This document shows positions 10,287-23,333 of a stretch of 35,357 nucleotides of DNA, piece after piece. The notes beneath the pieces are model-generated. The model saw only the letters and a list, made by a program, of their open reading frames with translations. It was not told the DNA's origin and did not search any database. Source of the DNA: a virus; the IMG/VR virus record IMGVR_UViG_3300010354_000266, positions 1 through 35,357 of that record, one strand, 5' to 3'. The translations under genes and the position numbers were made by a program. The first letter of the stretch is position 1, and every line of letters begins with the position of its first letter.

Positions 10287-10793
10287 ATGAGTACCTCTTT
10301 TACTAGTATTACTATTGGACAACGAACGGAAGAGGAACGCCCATTTGCTATTCGTGATGATATTCATGAGATGTTGGATAAAGATCCCACAGTAAACACT
10401 CGCTCTTGGCATAAGCCTGATGATATTGCATCTGCTAATAAGTGGGGAGAGCCACCTCAGGCAAAGCAAGCAGAGATTATTAAGAGTAGCGGTGGGGCTA
10501 TGCAAGAGGGTCCGGCTCAGGTCTTGATTAAAACTGATGATAAATTTGGTAACTTCATCAACTCAAAATGGCGACCATTGATGGCGATCATATACATGAT
10601 CACCTGTACATGTGACTTTGTAATTTTCCCAATTCTATGGAGTGTGTTACAAGCGTTAAGTCACGGTCAAGTTAATAGTCAATGGATGCCTATCACATTA
10701 CAAGGCGCAGGACTGTATCATATTGCCATGGGTGCTATTTTAGGAATCGCCGCCTATGGACGTAGTCAAGAAAAGATAGTAGGGAAAGCATAA
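10287..10793 (+). CDS. Membrane protein, holin-like
   Basis: 168 residues. The first 85 are hydrophilic. Residues from about 95 hold WRPLMAIIYMITCTCDFVIF, and a second hydrophobic stretch lies near 140-160 (AGLYHIAMGAILGIAAYGRS), with a possible further hydrophobic segment around FPILWSVLQAL. The 'F-x-N-S-K-W-R-P' entry to the first span and the Gly-rich last span followed by a short basic tail resemble the 3TM holin family of phages and gene-transfer agents. Holins pierce the inner membrane so that lysins can reach the wall. No endolysin gene is recognisable nearby, so the assignment rests on topology. Confidence 0.55.
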   Translation: MSTSFTSITIGQRTEEERPFAIRDDIHEMLDKDPTVNTRSWHKPDDIASANKWGEPPQAKQAEIIKSSGGAMQEGPAQVLIKTDDKFGNFINSKWRPLMAIIYMITCTCDFVIFPILWSVLQALSHGQVNSQWMPITLQGAGLYHIAMGAILGIAAYGRSQEKIVGKA

Positions 10794-11575
10794 TGAAACC
10801 ATCAGATATTATAACAGAAAGTATTGAACATCGTGAGCTAGAAGAAGCTCCTATGGGTTTCTTTAAAAATCTCGGATACAAAGTGGCAGGTAGTGTTTTA
10901 AACCCATTTGATAGTAGATCACTATATCAAGGTAAACAAGAGATAGGTAAACGAGCCGATGCATTAGCACGAGAATTTCGTAAATATCTAGCAACGATAC
11001 CTGGAAATCAAGCAACAGTAACTAACCTATTAAAATGGCTCAAGTTCAAAAAATTAGAGACTGCTGGTGTAGAAAAGTTAATTAGTGATCCCGCTCCAAT
11101 GGAAGAACCTAGAACTTCTAATGTCGCTTCAAATAAGTCATCGGGTGTTAGACAAAGAGTAGAACCTAGATTAAGTGAGGATACGATGACATTCAACACC
11201 GTGCTCTCACCTAAGCAAATAGACAGTTTTATACTAAGAGCTATTCAGGATACTGCTAATAAAGAATATTTTGAACCAAGCGCGCAAATTGATGATCAAG
11301 GAACTCGATCAGCTTCTTCCGAGCCAAAACCTCAGCCATCGCCAGCGACATCTGCTCAGCAACCAGCTTCTTCCGAACCAACACCTCAGCAACCAGCTTC
11401 TTCCGAGCCAACACCTCAGCCATCGCTAGCGACATCTGCTCAGCCAAAAGACGAGTTGAATGATATCAGAAGACTGAGTGGGATTGTTCAAGATCATGAA
11501 GATCGTATTAAAAAACTAGAAGTTGGTAAAACCGATAATCGAGTGAAATTCACTGGTAAAAAAACGGGCACCTAA
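10793..11575 (+). CDS. Probable internal head or scaffold-type protein with Pro/Ser/Ala/Thr repeats
   Basis: 260 residues, ATG overlapping the holin-like gene stop (TAATG). The N-terminus MKPSDIITESIEHRELEEAP resembles a capsid-targeting leader: a short amphipathic segment with I-T-E and L-E-E steps that match the T4 prohead-protease pattern (L/I-x-E). GFFKNLGYKVAGSVL follows. Residues about 173-222 are a tandem low-complexity block (ASSEPTPQ and PSxATSAQ units), encoded by duplicated DNA. The end is a coiled-coil-like helix (DELNDIRRLSGIVQDHEDRI) and a basic tail. It is likely packaged in, or part of the core of, the prohead; this is inferred. Confidence 0.6.
   Translation: MKPSDIITESIEHRELEEAPMGFFKNLGYKVAGSVLNPFDSRSLYQGKQEIGKRADALAREFRKYLATIPGNQATVTNLLKWLKFKKLETAGVEKLISDPAPMEEPRTSNVASNKSSGVRQRVEPRLSEDTMTFNTVLSPKQIDSFILRAIQDTANKEYFEPSAQIDDQGTRSASSEPKPQPSPATSAQQPASSEPTPQQPASSEPTPQPSLATSAQPKDELNDIRRLSGIVQDHEDRIKKLEVGKTDNRVKFTGKKTGT
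11310..11443 (+). repeat. Tandem coding repeats (A-B-A-A-B) in the Pro/Ser/Ala-rich protein
   Basis: Unit A (CAGCTTCTTCCGAGCCAAC and following CCTCAG) starts at 11310, 11364 and 11394. Unit B (CCATCGCCAGCGACATCTG) follows the first and third. The copies are almost identical in DNA, so the duplication is recent. All are in frame and encode ASSEPxPQ and PSxATSAQ. Confidence 0.85.
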
Positions 11576-18538: not shown

Positions 18539-19711
18539 ATGAATATAACTCAATTAGAATCTTTCAAGCTCAGTGATGCTGTAGAATTTCATGACGAGCT
18601 TAATCCTGATTTATTTCAAGATGAAAAGATGATCTCATCGGTTCGTCGTCAGATCATGAAAATTGCTTTAGATTTTGTTGAACATGTAAGCATCGGTGAT
18701 TTAGATATTGAAGATATTACACTTAGCGGAAGTAATGCTGCTTATAGTTATACTGATCATAGCGATATAGATATTCATATTTTGATTGATTATTCAAAAT
18801 TGCCCACGAATGAGGTCTATCGAGAACTATTCGACGCTAAAAGAATAAGTTATAACGACTCACATGATATAAAAATAGCAGGGTATTCGGTAGAGTTATA
18901 TGTTCAAGATAGTAATCAACCTCATGTTAGTCTTGGAGAATACAGCGTTATTGATGATCGATGGCTTCGAATACCCGTTAAACGTCGTGCTAATTTTGAT
19001 CAACATAATACTGCTCTTAAATTTGAGAAACTTGACAAGATTTCCAAGTTAGCTCTTAAGCAACAAGATTTAGATCAAGTAGAAAGAGTTTTAGATATTC
19101 TTCGTCGATATCGTACTGCTGGACTCAGTGAAAATGGTGAATTTGGGCCGGAAAATCTTGCTTATAAAGCATTGAGAGCACAAAATACAGTTCAAAAGTT
19201 ATTTGATCTCAGAGATAAATTACATGCTCGTTCGCTGAGCATGGACGAATCTCTAGATCGTAGAACCATGAGCGTAGAGCAAGTAGCGGCAAAGCATAAA
19301 GTTTCTGTTAAGCAGATATTGACTCAGCTTAGACAGGGTGTTGAGATAGAATTAGAACATACCACTGATAGAAAAACAGCTAAGGAAATAGCATTAGATC
19401 ATTTATCCGAAGATCCTAGATACTATACTAAGTTATCTAAAATGAAATTAGAGAATCGTCTTACTGTAACTGAAGCTGCTAAATTTTTGCTCAACGAAGA
19501 AAGTCCAACTATTAGTGTAATCAATCTTTATCGTACTAGAAAACTAACGGGTTCTGATAATTTAGATGATTCACAGGGTCTATGGTCACAAATTTGGAAA
19601 GTATTTGGAGATCGTCACGATAAAATGATTAAGAATCCTAAAAACAATAAAGATTATCTAATCTCTCAAGAATTATATGATTATCTCTTGAAAAGTCAAA
19701 CTATCAGATAA
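18539..19711 (+). CDS. Nucleotidyltransferase (Pol-beta/MNT fold) fused to a DUF5661-like domain
   Basis: 390 residues. The N-terminal domain has the Pol-beta superfamily signature LSGSNAAYSYTDHSDIDIHI: GS at 64-65 and metal acids D76 and D78. A third acid is plausible in GYSVELYV. Residues about 235-300 (RRTMSVEQVAAKHKVSV, then ELEHTTDRKTAKEIALDHL and DPRYYTKL) look like the DUF5661 family, a small helical domain also seen in phages and bacteria. A last domain (SVINLYRTRKLTG to the end) is unassigned. The protein may transfer a nucleotide to RNA, protein or small molecules. A CATAAATA box 8 nt before the ATG suggests late expression, so it may act in or travel with the virion. Confidence 0.72.
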   Translation: MNITQLESFKLSDAVEFHDELNPDLFQDEKMISSVRRQIMKIALDFVEHVSIGDLDIEDITLSGSNAAYSYTDHSDIDIHILIDYSKLPTNEVYRELFDAKRISYNDSHDIKIAGYSVELYVQDSNQPHVSLGEYSVIDDRWLRIPVKRRANFDQHNTALKFEKLDKISKLALKQQDLDQVERVLDILRRYRTAGLSENGEFGPENLAYKALRAQNTVQKLFDLRDKLHARSLSMDESLDRRTMSVEQVAAKHKVSVKQILTQLRQGVEIELEHTTDRKTAKEIALDHLSEDPRYYTKLSKMKLENRLTVTEAAKFLLNEESPTISVINLYRTRKLTGSDNLDDSQGLWSQIWKVFGDRHDKMIKNPKNNKDYLISQELYDYLLKSQTIR

Positions 19712-19713
19712 TC

Positions 19714-19721
19714 GCTAAATA
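19714..19721 (+). promoter_or_regulatory. T4-late-like promoter box GCTAAATA
   Basis: Lies just after the stop of the nucleotidyltransferase gene and 23 nt before the ATG of the giant modular protein, with AGGA in between. It suggests late, virion-phase expression of that protein. Confidence 0.45.
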
Positions 19722-19744: not shown

Positions 19745-22700
19745 ATGAGTGACATTCGCAAACTATTATCTATCGTTACTGAATCAACAACTGCCGGAAG
19801 CATTGCTACTAATGCCGCTGTTCCCTTGACTTCTGAAACTATTAAACGTGAGAACAAGCCATCAGAATATGGTAATTGGGAAAATAGTTTGGGAGAAGAA
19901 AAGGTCAGACTAGATAAGTCATGTTGGAAGGGATATAAAAAGCAAGGCACCAAAATGAAGGGTGATACAAGAGTTAATAATTGTGTCCCTACAAAGAAAG
20001 TTAAAGAATCTCTAGAGGTTTATCCCGATCCCGAGGATCATTCATTTGATACATTAGAACATGCCAAGAAATACGCTCTGCGTAGAGCCAGTCATCTTAG
20101 AGATTCCTCTGATACTATTGAAATTTGGAAAGACAAGCAGAAAAACAAGTTTTGGGTAAATCATTCAATGAATTGGAATCAAAGACAGACATTGGAGAAA
20201 CGTGCTAATTTAGTTGACAATGTTAGTCGTCGTGATGTTAAAGAGAGTACTCTAACCAAGGGTCAAAAGAAAGCACGTCAAGTTAGTGCTACTGAGCCTA
20301 CAAAAAGCATACGAGTTCTTGGAAACAAGCCTCAAAAACATCCATTTGATGGTAAATTAGTTGGTGTGGCAGAATCTTACAGAGATGATCCTAATAGTTT
20401 ATCTAGTAAGATTCCTTCAACTGATACAATACCTCAAGATTCAACTGCTGGTCAGGCTCAATTGCAGGCCATGGTAGATGGAATGAAACAACAGACTATA
20501 GACAGAATCTTAGATATCAACCCAGAGTGGGGTCGCAGTGACTTGTCATTGATGACAGCGGCTGAACTGAATCAAATGCTAAGAGATCTACCTCTACCGG
20601 CTAAAAGAGCAAAGAAAGATGTGACGGAAATGGACAAGAGTCAACCCAGCCACGGTCGTGATGGTAAGATTAGCCACAGCACCTATGGTTCAAGAGATAA
20701 AAAAGGTTCTGACTATTTCAAAGGTAAGGAAGTTCCTGTTAAGCCTATTACCGTAAAGAAGATGGAAAAAGACGCACTTGAAATTTTGAAAAAGCAAGGT
20801 GTGGCGGAAGCAAAAATCTTAAGTGATCATGACAAGCAAAAAATGTATAGATCCGTTGAGAACGGTATCAATCGTTATGCTGAAAGATTAGAAGATGAGC
20901 ATGGGCGAATGGAAGATTGGCCCGAAGACGTAGGCTATCAAGCATGGGAAGATGCTCGTGATGATGTAGAACATTTCTTGTCTATGACAGACGGCAGTAA
21001 GCGAGTGCTACATGCTATATTATCAAAGATTGAAAACGACTATGACGGTATGATTCAAGCGGCCCTTGCTCACAATATGCTTGAGAACGGCGGTTTTGAT
21101 GATGTGTATGAGGGTAAGCAAGGTGTGGCGGAAGGCCAATTAGATGAAATCATTGATCCCACTACAGCCATAGCAAAGACATTGCGTTATATAGGTAGAA
21201 AATTTGCAACGGTATTTCCTTGGTTGGCAGTAGGTGGTTTGGGTGCTACTTTAACATATACGGGGTTACTCGCCCCGATGGTCACAGCAGTAGGTGGTGC
21301 AGCTAATGCGATTGCAGCATTGGGGACAGAGGCTGTGATTGGTAGCGCAATGGCAGGTACGTATGCCGCACCTAGTCTTATTCAATCAATAAAAGATTTA
21401 TTTGCCGCAGATGAAAATAGTATTCAAGCAGGCATTAAACGATGGGTTGAAAAACATGTGGGAGATGAAAATGATGTACAAGAATTTTTATTAATTCACG
21501 CAAAAGCAGCATACGGAGGTAAGACTGGTTTCCGTTGGAGAGCCAAAGAATGGACTGTTAAATTAAACAAGGATCAAGCTGAGGCATATTTAGAAAAGAA
21601 TGATAAGACGTGGCTTGATATGGAAAAACAACGAGTCCTTGACGCTGAAAAGAAAAAACCAGAGCAAGGTGTGGCGGAAGCAACTGGTGACATCTCATTT
21701 GACCAAATACTAAAAGATATTACTAGTAAAAAAGCAGTAAAAAAACAAAGACAATCAGATACTAAACAACAATCAAAAAGATCATTCGACTCAATGTTTG
21801 GCGGCGGTAATCCAGCTGTCATTCTTGATATAAGAAAGAAGAAGGTGACGGAAAGTTTTTCGTGGAAATCACTTGACTCTGGACTAAGTCTAGATAATAA
21901 AATGACAATATTTGAAGAATATTACACTAAAGGCAATCTATTTGAATCCATTGATGAGAATGAAAAATCTTATTTTATGTCATTGTTCAATATGTCATCT
22001 ACGCCAGAAAAGAATAACAGATACATTGTGGCTCCGTTGTCATTAGTAGGCAATAAAATAATGACATTAGCCAAACCTCGTTACTTAGAGTATTTGGGTA
22101 AATCTAAGGGTCAACTAGTTTTTAAATCAGATAAAGGTCAGATCAGATACCCATCTGAAACAATGCGCGATCTGTCTGTGTCTAACACTTTTACATTTTC
22201 GTCAGTAGACTTGTATAATAAGTTCAGAACTGCTCTTATTCTAAAGTTTAATGCTGATTTACCGAGGATAATGGGTGTGGCGGAAGGTGCCATGAAAGAT
22301 ATCATGCATGCCGATGCCGAACAACTGGAGTTGAAAGATTTTATTGAGAAGTATGGTAATGAAGATTGGGTCAAAGAATTTTGGCATAATATAAACGATA
22401 TCGGCGATCATACTCTACATGAAGTTACAGAAGCCCGTGATCCTAAAGAATTTATCAGTCAGGTAGTAGACACGGTTCAGGCTGATGATGCTTTCAATGA
22501 AATCAATGATTTAATCAATAAGTTGGGAATTAAAAATTTAGAGGTGACTACTGGATCCGAAAATATATACATAAAAGATAAAAGTCGAGCACATCAAACT
22601 CTTCCAAAAACCGAAATACATTTAACTTACGGACGAGATGGTCATAGATTTGCCAAGCGATCAGATGTAGAACGAGCTAAAAATAGTATTCGTACACAAT

Positions 22701-22873
22701 ATAAAATTGGTGCTATCAAAGAAGAATCTGCTATGTTTGAAGATGAACTTAGCGAAGAACAATTAAAAGAGAAATTAAAAAAAGAGATGAATTTGTTTAT
22801 GAAATCGCATCGTTCTAAGAATAAAGAACTAAGTACGAAACCCAAGGACAGGGAAATTCATAAAAAGGTATAA
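19745..22873 (+). CDS. Giant modular protein with repeated V-x-E sites, candidate prohead-processed polyprotein
   Basis: 1042 residues. It starts with a leader-like MSDIRKLLSIVTES. V/I-x-E followed by S, A, G, M or E recurs at E13, E88, E167, E210, E295, E355, E463, E645, E703, E847, E896 and E993, dividing the chain into pieces of about 43-182 residues. The pieces do not resemble each other. One carries CWKGY...NNCVP (Cys60, Cys80), one (464-645) has two hydrophobic spans, others are charged helical domains, and the end is Lys-rich. T4 gp21 cuts internal head proteins after (L/I)-x-E, so processing inside the prohead is a reasonable inference. A GCTAAATA box 23 nt upstream suggests late expression. 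Function of the pieces unknown. Confidence 0.75.
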   Translation: MSDIRKLLSIVTESTTAGSIATNAAVPLTSETIKRENKPSEYGNWENSLGEEKVRLDKSCWKGYKKQGTKMKGDTRVNNCVPTKKVKESLEVYPDPEDHSFDTLEHAKKYALRRASHLRDSSDTIEIWKDKQKNKFWVNHSMNWNQRQTLEKRANLVDNVSRRDVKESTLTKGQKKARQVSATEPTKSIRVLGNKPQKHPFDGKLVGVAESYRDDPNSLSSKIPSTDTIPQDSTAGQAQLQAMVDGMKQQTIDRILDINPEWGRSDLSLMTAAELNQMLRDLPLPAKRAKKDVTEMDKSQPSHGRDGKISHSTYGSRDKKGSDYFKGKEVPVKPITVKKMEKDALEILKKQGVAEAKILSDHDKQKMYRSVENGINRYAERLEDEHGRMEDWPEDVGYQAWEDARDDVEHFLSMTDGSKRVLHAILSKIENDYDGMIQAALAHNMLENGGFDDVYEGKQGVAEGQLDEIIDPTTAIAKTLRYIGRKFATVFPWLAVGGLGATLTYTGLLAPMVTAVGGAANAIAALGTEAVIGSAMAGTYAAPSLIQSIKDLFAADENSIQAGIKRWVEKHVGDENDVQEFLLIHAKAAYGGKTGFRWRAKEWTVKLNKDQAEAYLEKNDKTWLDMEKQRVLDAEKKKPEQGVAEATGDISFDQILKDITSKKAVKKQRQSDTKQQSKRSFDSMFGGGNPAVILDIRKKKVTESFSWKSLDSGLSLDNKMTIFEEYYTKGNLFESIDENEKSYFMSLFNMSSTPEKNNRYIVAPLSLVGNKIMTLAKPRYLEYLGKSKGQLVFKSDKGQIRYPSETMRDLSVSNTFTFSSVDLYNKFRTALILKFNADLPRIMGVAEGAMKDIMHADAEQLELKDFIEKYGNEDWVKEFWHNINDIGDHTLHEVTEARDPKEFISQVVDTVQADDAFNEINDLINKLGIKNLEVTTGSENIYIKDKSRAHQTLPKTEIHLTYGRDGHRFAKRSDVERAKNSIRTQYKIGAIKEESAMFEDELSEEQLKEKLKKEMNLFMKSHRSKNKELSTKPKDREIHKKV
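20794..22286 (+). repeat. Dispersed 13-17 bp in-frame repeat GCAAGGTGTGGCGGAAG
   Basis: The full 17 bases occur at 20794-20810, 21118-21134 and 21664-21680. The core GGTGTGGCGGAAG also occurs at 22274-22286, and a two-mismatch form lies at 20363-20375. All are in the same frame and encode (K/E)QGVAE at the joints between unrelated protein modules. Spacing is 324, 546 and about 610 bp. Confidence 0.9.
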
Positions 22874-22892: not shown

Positions 22893-23333
22893 ATGTTACA
22901 AGAAAAACTTAAAGTTGTTTTAGGTACTACGTTCACGTTTTATGTTAAAACACATGGATTTCATTTTAATGTAGAAGGTCCAAACTTCCCTCAATATCAC
23001 TCATTCTTAGGTGATTTATATACCGAAGTCTATGGCACTATTGATACACTAGGAGAAATTATTAGACAACTGGATTCATATACTCCTGGATCATTGGCAA
23101 GATATCAAGAGTTGAGTGTAATCGACGAACAATTAAAGGTACCTCGTGCTGAACTAATGATACAAGAATTGTACGATGACAATCAAAAGATTATTGTGTT
23201 ATTAAAAGAAACATTTCATCTATGTGAAGAGGCAGATGAGCAAGGTATTGCCAACTTTATAGCAGAACGTATTGATGCTCATAGTAAATGGAAATGGCAA
23301 TTGAGTAGTATCTTAAAGACTAACAGAGGATAG
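22893..23333 (+). CDS. dps: Dps-like ferritin (DNA protection / iron oxidation)
   Basis: 146 residues, slightly shorter than E. coli Dps (167). The four ferroxidase ligands are present with exact Dps spacing: H24 (in HGFHFNVEGPNF), H36, D51 and E55, matching H51, H63, D78 and E82 of E. coli. The usual HWN is HFN here. The four-helix pattern continues to LSSILKTNRG. Dps assembles as a 12-mer that oxidises iron with peroxide and shields DNA. The N-terminus is short and lacks the Lys-rich DNA-binding tail of E. coli Dps. It lies between the modular polyprotein and a gene with a T4 internal-protein-like leader, so a role in the virion or in early infection is possible. Confidence 0.85.
   Translation: MLQEKLKVVLGTTFTFYVKTHGFHFNVEGPNFPQYHSFLGDLYTEVYGTIDTLGEIIRQLDSYTPGSLARYQELSVIDEQLKVPRAELMIQELYDDNQKIIVLLKETFHLCEEADEQGIANFIAERIDAHSKWKWQLSSILKTNRG

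Follow-up and report, generated by a model that had tools for sequence, protein, structure and literature searches.

The gene described here has two known relatives in kind, the internal head proteins of phage T4 and the polyvalent proteins. The T4 proteins IPI, IPII, IPIII and Alt each begin with a capsid-targeting leader of 10-19 residues that ends in hydrophobic-x-Glu and is cut by the prohead protease gp21, for which the cleavage rule is L/I-x-E; Alt is a packaged ADP-ribosyltransferase (PMC9026906). Each of these proteins is a single cargo trimmed at its end. Polyvalent proteins (Iyer et al. 2017, PMC5512222) combine disparate effector domains, ParB-like and ADP-ribosyltransferase (ART) domains among them, and are presumed to reach the host together with the DNA; as far as the parts of that account available to us go, they either embed a peptidase or act as a whole chain, and no junction repeat is reported. 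Several prohead-protease cuts per protein, after x-x-Glu motifs, are known from head proteins of phages phiKZ and SPN3US, but these fall within removed propeptides and not between cargo modules, and cassette exchange has not been described for them (PMC10052503).

The window, that is, the whole stretch of DNA analysed here, corresponds to an entire IMG/VR record (35,357 bases), which is classed as linear and is therefore probably a fragment. It contains an open gene for a protein of 1042 amino acids (19745..22873, + strand, from the ATG at 19745 to the stop at 22873), in which, in contrast to the T4 internal proteins, up to a dozen unrelated cassettes are separated by repeated internal sites. 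An initial annotation, made from the sequence alone, had read the gene as a cassette polyprotein carrying many small proteins into the head, to be separated there and perhaps injected. We favour, with a probability of roughly 0.8, a polyprotein that is targeted to the head and processed by a protease, and whose cargo changes through recombination at repeats encoding the cleavage sites. The exchange of cassettes between sites, the T4-like leaders and the presence of gp21 in related records all support the earlier proposal, in which cleavage and injection remain inferred. That annotation also knew of no single gene with so many candidate sites, and neither do we: our motif search of the literature returned unrelated papers only, and other searches brought up no published system that unites these features. 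The new element is a junction that appears to carry two codes at once. Homology searches say little about the protein itself, which has no Pfam match, a single weak tblastn match among cultured phages and, in PHROGs, nothing beyond short matches of unknown function, all within residues 35-152. The PADLOC defence models gave no match.

Candidate cut sites are far more frequent in this protein than its composition would predict. The motif [VI]-x-E-[SAGME] occurs 14 times against a shuffle mean of 2.74 (0 of 2000 shuffles reached 14), and GVAE five times against 0.02 expected; the looser [VILM]xE occurs only 25 times where 17.3 are expected. The twelve glutamates listed initially (residues 13, 88, 167, 210, 295, 355, 463, 645, 703, 847, 896 and 993) all fit the stricter motif, and so their positions were right, but the list was slightly selective, because residues 456 (VYEG) and 724 (IFEE) fit as well and had been left out. 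The claim that the intervening segments are unrelated to one another held up in a BLASTP self-comparison of the twelve segments longer than 20 residues, where no pair reached E < 0.05. Relatives place the boundaries at residues 13, 88, 295, 355, 463, 645, 703 and 847 independently, through either a cassette or a leader, while E167, E210, E896 and E993 have the motif as their sole support. An AlphaFold model of the whole 1042-residue chain, with three sequences, had a mean pLDDT of 33 and was too poor to place sites in linkers; 11 of the 12 sites lie in coil, as do 57% of all residues, and we consider this unusable as evidence.

The sites and cassettes follow one another along the + strand (a slash marks the candidate cut). 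The candidate capsid-targeting leader MSDIRKLLSIVTE (19745..19783), cut after E13, is kept in relatives L121 and L094. At 20000..20008 lies VKE/S (E88), and the cassette before it (CWKGYK..VNNCVP) ends in relatives with SVEE/, SVAE/ or GVAE/, after which other cassettes follow. A second VKE/S (E167, 20237..20245) rests on the motif only, and the GVAE/S site at E210 (20363..20374) is a repeat copy with one mismatch in its 12-nt core. The diverged junction VTE/M (E295, 20621..20629) corresponds to QQDVTE/MDSQ, KQGITE/M and LAE/MDKS in relatives. Then come a direct repeat copy CAAGGTGTGGCGGAAGC encoding QGVAE/A (E355, 20795..20811), the cassette of residues 356-463 (20810..21133), which has a repeat on each flank and is kept in contig L002, and the copy CAAGGTGTGGCGGAAGG encoding QGVAE/G (E463, 21119..21135). 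The 182-residue cassette 464-645 (21134..21679) is closed by another copy of CAAGGTGTGGCGGAAGC, again encoding QGVAE/A (E645, 21665..21681). Cassette 646-703 (ATGD..FGGGNPA..; 21680..21853) occurs beside different neighbours in L086, L094 and L170; it ends here in VTE/S (E703, 21845..21853) and elsewhere in VGE/A (L086), GVAE/G (L094) and GVAE/D (L170). The boundary at E847, where the copy ATGGGTGTGGCGGAAGG encodes GVAE/G (22271..22287), is also given by L004, and the motif-only candidates VTE/A (E896, 22424..22432) and IKE/E (E993, 22715..22723) complete the series. VTE and VKE stand at the older junctions of the window; relatives join these cassette ends elsewhere through VGE, VEE or GVAE.

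What the initial annotation missed is that the putative cut-site motif doubles as a DNA repeat at which, judging from the comparisons below, cassettes are exchanged. The junction sites also form an in-frame direct repeat of about 20 bp, AAG CAA GGT GTG GCG GAA GGC, which at least 120 viral records of IMG/VR have at their cassette junctions; such an exchangeable repeat is a feature of this gene family and not of the T4 internal proteins. Five sites of the window gene have the near-identical DNA GGTGTGGCRGAA in common, and a search with CAAGGTGTGGCGGAAGG at up to three mismatches found four copies in the window (20795, 21119, 21665 and 22271), all inside the polyprotein gene, where 0.01 would be expected. 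IMG/VR was searched both with a codon-neutral KQGVAEG pattern and with the exact repeat DNA regardless of frame, each giving at least 120 matches. The KQGVAEG matches listed lie nearly all in long open reading frames with up to seven GVAE sites each. Among these matches the DNA under QGVAEG is nearly fixed, with 110 of 184 non-redundant sites reading CAAGGTGTGGCGGAAGGC, identical over 18 nt. The codon-neutral scan gave, again among the matches listed, GCG as the alanine codon at 92% of repeats against 11% elsewhere in the same genes, and GTG as the valine codon at 89% against a background of 24%. Conservation of the DNA is confined to the stretch from about 6 nt before the Gly codon to about 14 nt after the start of that codon and falls to background beyond. 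In large records, the repeats form a small number of clusters and lie on one strand per record.

Exchange at these repeats can be followed almost to the base. The window and L002 share 98.5% nucleotide identity along 458 bp that close with AAGCAAGGTGTGGCGGAAGGC; behind it, L002 has a different cassette, and identity to the window of about 95% resumes at GTGTGGCGGAAGCAACTGG. Thus one cassette, residues 464-645, was swapped exactly between two sites, with the repeat at 21119..21135 as left and that at 21665..21681 as right breakpoint, as expected if sites are kept while modules change. The replacement cassette is present with other neighbours in seven other contigs, including L265, L168 and L040, and its homology to L265 and L040 begins and ends at the repeat. 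Over all gene pairs, homology ends within the repeat in both genes in 25% of cases, compared with 0.2% for random positions, and in 56% for pairs at least 90% identical. The 355 interior cassettes among the matches listed (median 91 amino acids) fall into 254 clusters, and the neighbours of those that recur are almost all different, in agreement with the idea that modules change around fixed sites. Integron-like cassettes need a dedicated tyrosine recombinase; no Phage_integrase or Resolvase match was seen in 16 records, which may be fragments, and the absence of tyrosine and serine recombinases from this search leads us to favour ordinary homologous recombination at the repeats, a step that is inferred. 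L049 shows a tandem duplication between repeats, of the kind expected from unequal recombination: two cassettes in a row are identical as protein (HADQQ..KHCLKQGVAE). The window cassette 464-645 has a copy with 36% identity in L076; by eye, two long hydrophobic stretches can be seen in it, and it might be membrane-active cargo.

The sites are also constrained as protein. Among the matches listed, 197 sites have drifted one to three bases from the consensus and no longer encode QGVAEG. Changes affect Gln in 83 of them, Gly in 32, Ala in 26 and the last Gly in 88, whereas Glu is kept in 193 of the 197, so that DNA drift alone does not explain the sparing of Glu; the Val position holds V, M, L or I in 196 of 197. 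Read at the level of sequence, the [VLIM]-x-E kept at drifted sites matches the T4 gp21 rule of L/I-x-E (PMC9026906), extended to V and M. Valine at P3 goes beyond the rule described for T4 and counts against the gp21 reading.

The leader at the start of the window protein, which had been likened to those of T4 internal proteins, proved to recur among related genes. MRAxEFxxE, MKIxELxxE or something similar starts many GVAE genes and many single-cassette genes of the same phages. Among the matches listed, [VLIMF]xE ends at residue 8 or 9 in 62 of 153 GVAE genes and in 279 of 2058 other open reading frames (p = 4e-15); in the window protein, the leader ends at E13. Cassettes that come immediately after the leader Glu in one phage recur in a different phage immediately behind an internal VAE Glu. 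When leader Glu and internal VAE Glu are aligned, the commonest register is 0 (25 of 132 comparisons), and many other registers occur too. We regard this in-register equivalence, which only sequences attest, as the most telling of the indirect indications that internal sites are handled in the same way as the cut site of a leader.

A prohead protease, whose absence from the genome would have refuted the initial proposal, is not visible in the 35-kb window, but T4-type gp21 is present in 10 related large records; gp21 for the window phage is thus inferred from its relatives. Both gp21 (PF03420) and gp23 (PF07068) were found in the same nine of the 20 large records sampled first. G021, a record of 231 kb, adds a further gp21; it contains four GVAE sites, and its PolB is 66% identical to that of the window. 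A match to the T4 portal protein occurs in 10 of 21 large records, and all nine that span the portal gene encode gp21. The tenth, G011, has a portal match without gp21, and its sequence breaks off within the portal gene; in G002, which has no portal, gp21 and gp23 lie at the extreme end. None of the 11 first-sampled large records without gp21 holds a complete portal gene, and no match to Peptidase_S78, as an alternative protease, was found in the large records without gp21. Because those records, G011 excepted, also lack portal and gp23, the head region is probably missing from them. The gp23 proteins of the group keep LxE just before N/S/T-A near residue 42, which we take, by comparison with T4, to be the maturation site.

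Evidence from virions comes only from related cassettes in a cyanophage, and neither virion presence nor cleavage products have been measured for the GVAE phage group, where cutting is inferred from sequence alone, such as the constraint to [VLIM]-x-E at drifted sites. ORF176 of cyanophage S-SCSM2R (815 amino acids) contains cassettes of the GVAE pool joined at VKE/, VKE/ and LKE/ without a DNA repeat; its 11 occurrences of [VLI]xE, where 8.3 are expected, are not significantly enriched overall. In S-SCSM1, ORF89-93 are annotated as virion proteins, ORF92 and ORF93 contain segments common to S-SCSM2R ORF176 and GVAE polyproteins, and ORF91, an NMNAT, begins with a targeting-type leader, MKSFLQFLKE/. 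The S-SCSM1 study, which reports mass spectrometry of virions purified on CsCl, names the NMNAT, and its authors allow that CsCl purification might have left non-structural proteins as carry-over (PMC9602691). The cyanophage block thus has cassettes, leader type and virion annotation (the last in S-SCSM1) in common with the window family, but its junctions are VKE, LKE and the like, it has no GVAE DNA repeat, and its cassettes are partly separate genes. One of our search probes was joined by hand from cassettes of several loci and served as a probe only.

The cargo is diverse. Pfam searches of 44 polyproteins found GNAT, ParB_N, DUF6321, GP88, chitinase, deaminase, amidoligase and nucleotidyltransferase domains, and PHROGs adds a cytidyltransferase and a family of protein kinases that is described as an inhibitor of host transcription. 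Disparate domains in one polypeptide, as in polyvalent proteins, are therefore met across the family, though the window protein itself is without a Pfam match. However, there is no peptidase among the 25 Pfam families listed for the 44 polyproteins, a difference from those polyvalent proteins that embed one, and the apparent cut rule fits a head protease. For the cassette that replaces residues 464-645 in L002, the top two Foldseek hits are Arr enzymes (probability 0.99, E 2e-3), and the best structural alignment (VIA-align) is to Tpt1 (Z 7.1, rmsd 3.0, 86 aligned), with ART-fold chains filling the list. This cassette is predicted to have an ADP-ribosyltransferase fold, on a model with a mean pLDDT of 66; the assignment is of fold only, and activity has not been shown. 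It fits the head-cargo reading because T4 Alt is a packaged ADP-ribosyltransferase (PMC9026906), and the phage group resembles T4 both in the gp21 of related records and in having cargo of the Alt type, as judged by fold. A 20-residue remnant of the ART-fold cassette lies directly after VTE/ in L116 (7834-7893) and looks decayed or truncated.

Could the repeat be a recombination linker and nothing more, with the protein injected in one piece, as a multidomain effector in the manner of an unprocessed polyvalent protein? We consider this unlikely. Neither the strong conservation at synonymous sites nor the exact DNA breakpoints need proteolysis, and the vRNAP of phage N4 is packaged unprocessed (PMC5512222). 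However, a linker alone leaves aside that drifted sites keep hydrophobic-x-Glu far beyond other codons, that the same cassettes start right after leader glutamates, and that in S-SCSM2R these cassettes meet at VKE/ and LKE/ with no DNA repeat to conserve. A structural or scaffolding protein of the prohead core, with fragments that serve head assembly and are not injected cargo, would also be cut, just as gp21 of T4 reduces gp22 and gp67 to small peptides that stay in the head (PMC9026906), and several of the fragments are small and basic. We find this quite improbable, since a part of the core assembly should not tolerate cassette content that differs between near-identical phages, and since many cassettes are enzyme-like.

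There is hardly any room for a further explanation, in which the repeat is a selfish or mobile element, or a target of a homing nuclease or site-specific recombinase, that came to lie in frame and whose peptide is incidental. The repeat is indeed short, strongly conserved, sharply bounded and always in the same orientation. Yet in 1.84 Mb all 257 exact copies and all 264 copies with one or two mismatches among the matches listed are in the QGVAEG frame, with none outside that frame or between genes. The recombinase search of 16 records described above was negative (homing nucleases were outside it), no RNA hairpin or fold is predicted at the repeat, and the 17-mer occurs only 70 times, always singly, in 257 Gb of bacterial and archaeal genomes, which is about the chance level (about 30 expected, estimated from base counts alone).

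For the processed head-cargo polyprotein that we prefer, comparison of sequences shows the modular gene, the junction repeat, the exchange, the hydrophobic-x-Glu constraint, the leader equivalence and the presence of gp21 in the group. By inference from T4, an N-terminal leader of about 13 residues would target the chain into the prohead core. A T4-type gp21 would then, we infer, cleave behind the Glu of [VLIM]-x-E sites, so that the leader is cut away and as many as a dozen small proteins are set free within the head, some of which may be injected with the DNA as early effectors; the effector function is likewise inferred. Recombination between in-frame repeats, as comparison of relatives indicates, would swap, add or drop whole cassettes and leave the frame intact. 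Because the repeat is both protease site and exchange point, an arriving cassette would automatically be in frame and automatically be excisable as protein. We lean, with some reserve, towards the broader proposal that this dual-code junction of about 20 bp is in use in a group of large T4-like phages that is itself widespread, and lets them trade several hundred effector cassettes of a shared pool in frame between genomes, deliver them in the head as a single polyprotein and release them with the maturation protease for injection. If true, this would account for the way in which large phages load many early effectors, and renew them, through a single gene, and would offer a clean case of one DNA motif kept by two codes, recombination and proteolysis. 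The repeat would also be a simple sequence tag by which hundreds of unknown proteins, candidates for a role against the host or its defences, could be found in uncultured phages, and, as the ends of every cassette are defined and it can be produced by itself, their head-cargo function is directly testable.

The surroundings of the gene offer some minor observations. A possible late-promoter-like element, GCTAAATA (19714..19721, + strand), lies 31 nt upstream of the ATG, and GATAAATA is found upstream of related genes at about the same spacing; both are suggestive only, and a scan of the window for the T4 late promoter TATAAATA gave a count not above chance. A separate gene of 260 amino acids (10793..11575, + strand) begins with a targeting-like leader of the family's class, MKPSDIITE/S, resembling a T4 capsid-targeting sequence, and is a possible candidate for a single-cargo head protein. 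The neighbouring gene at 18539-19711 has a DUF5661 domain (Pfam) and an N-terminal region that is, by eye, nucleotidyltransferase-like; DUF5661 is also the last cassette of polyprotein L086, and this gene may be part of the polyprotein cargo pool. Directly 3' of the polyprotein gene lies a gene for a ferritin-like (Dps-type) protein (22893-23333). In L013, L032 and L086, two or three separate polyprotein genes lie close together, most of them with their own leader.
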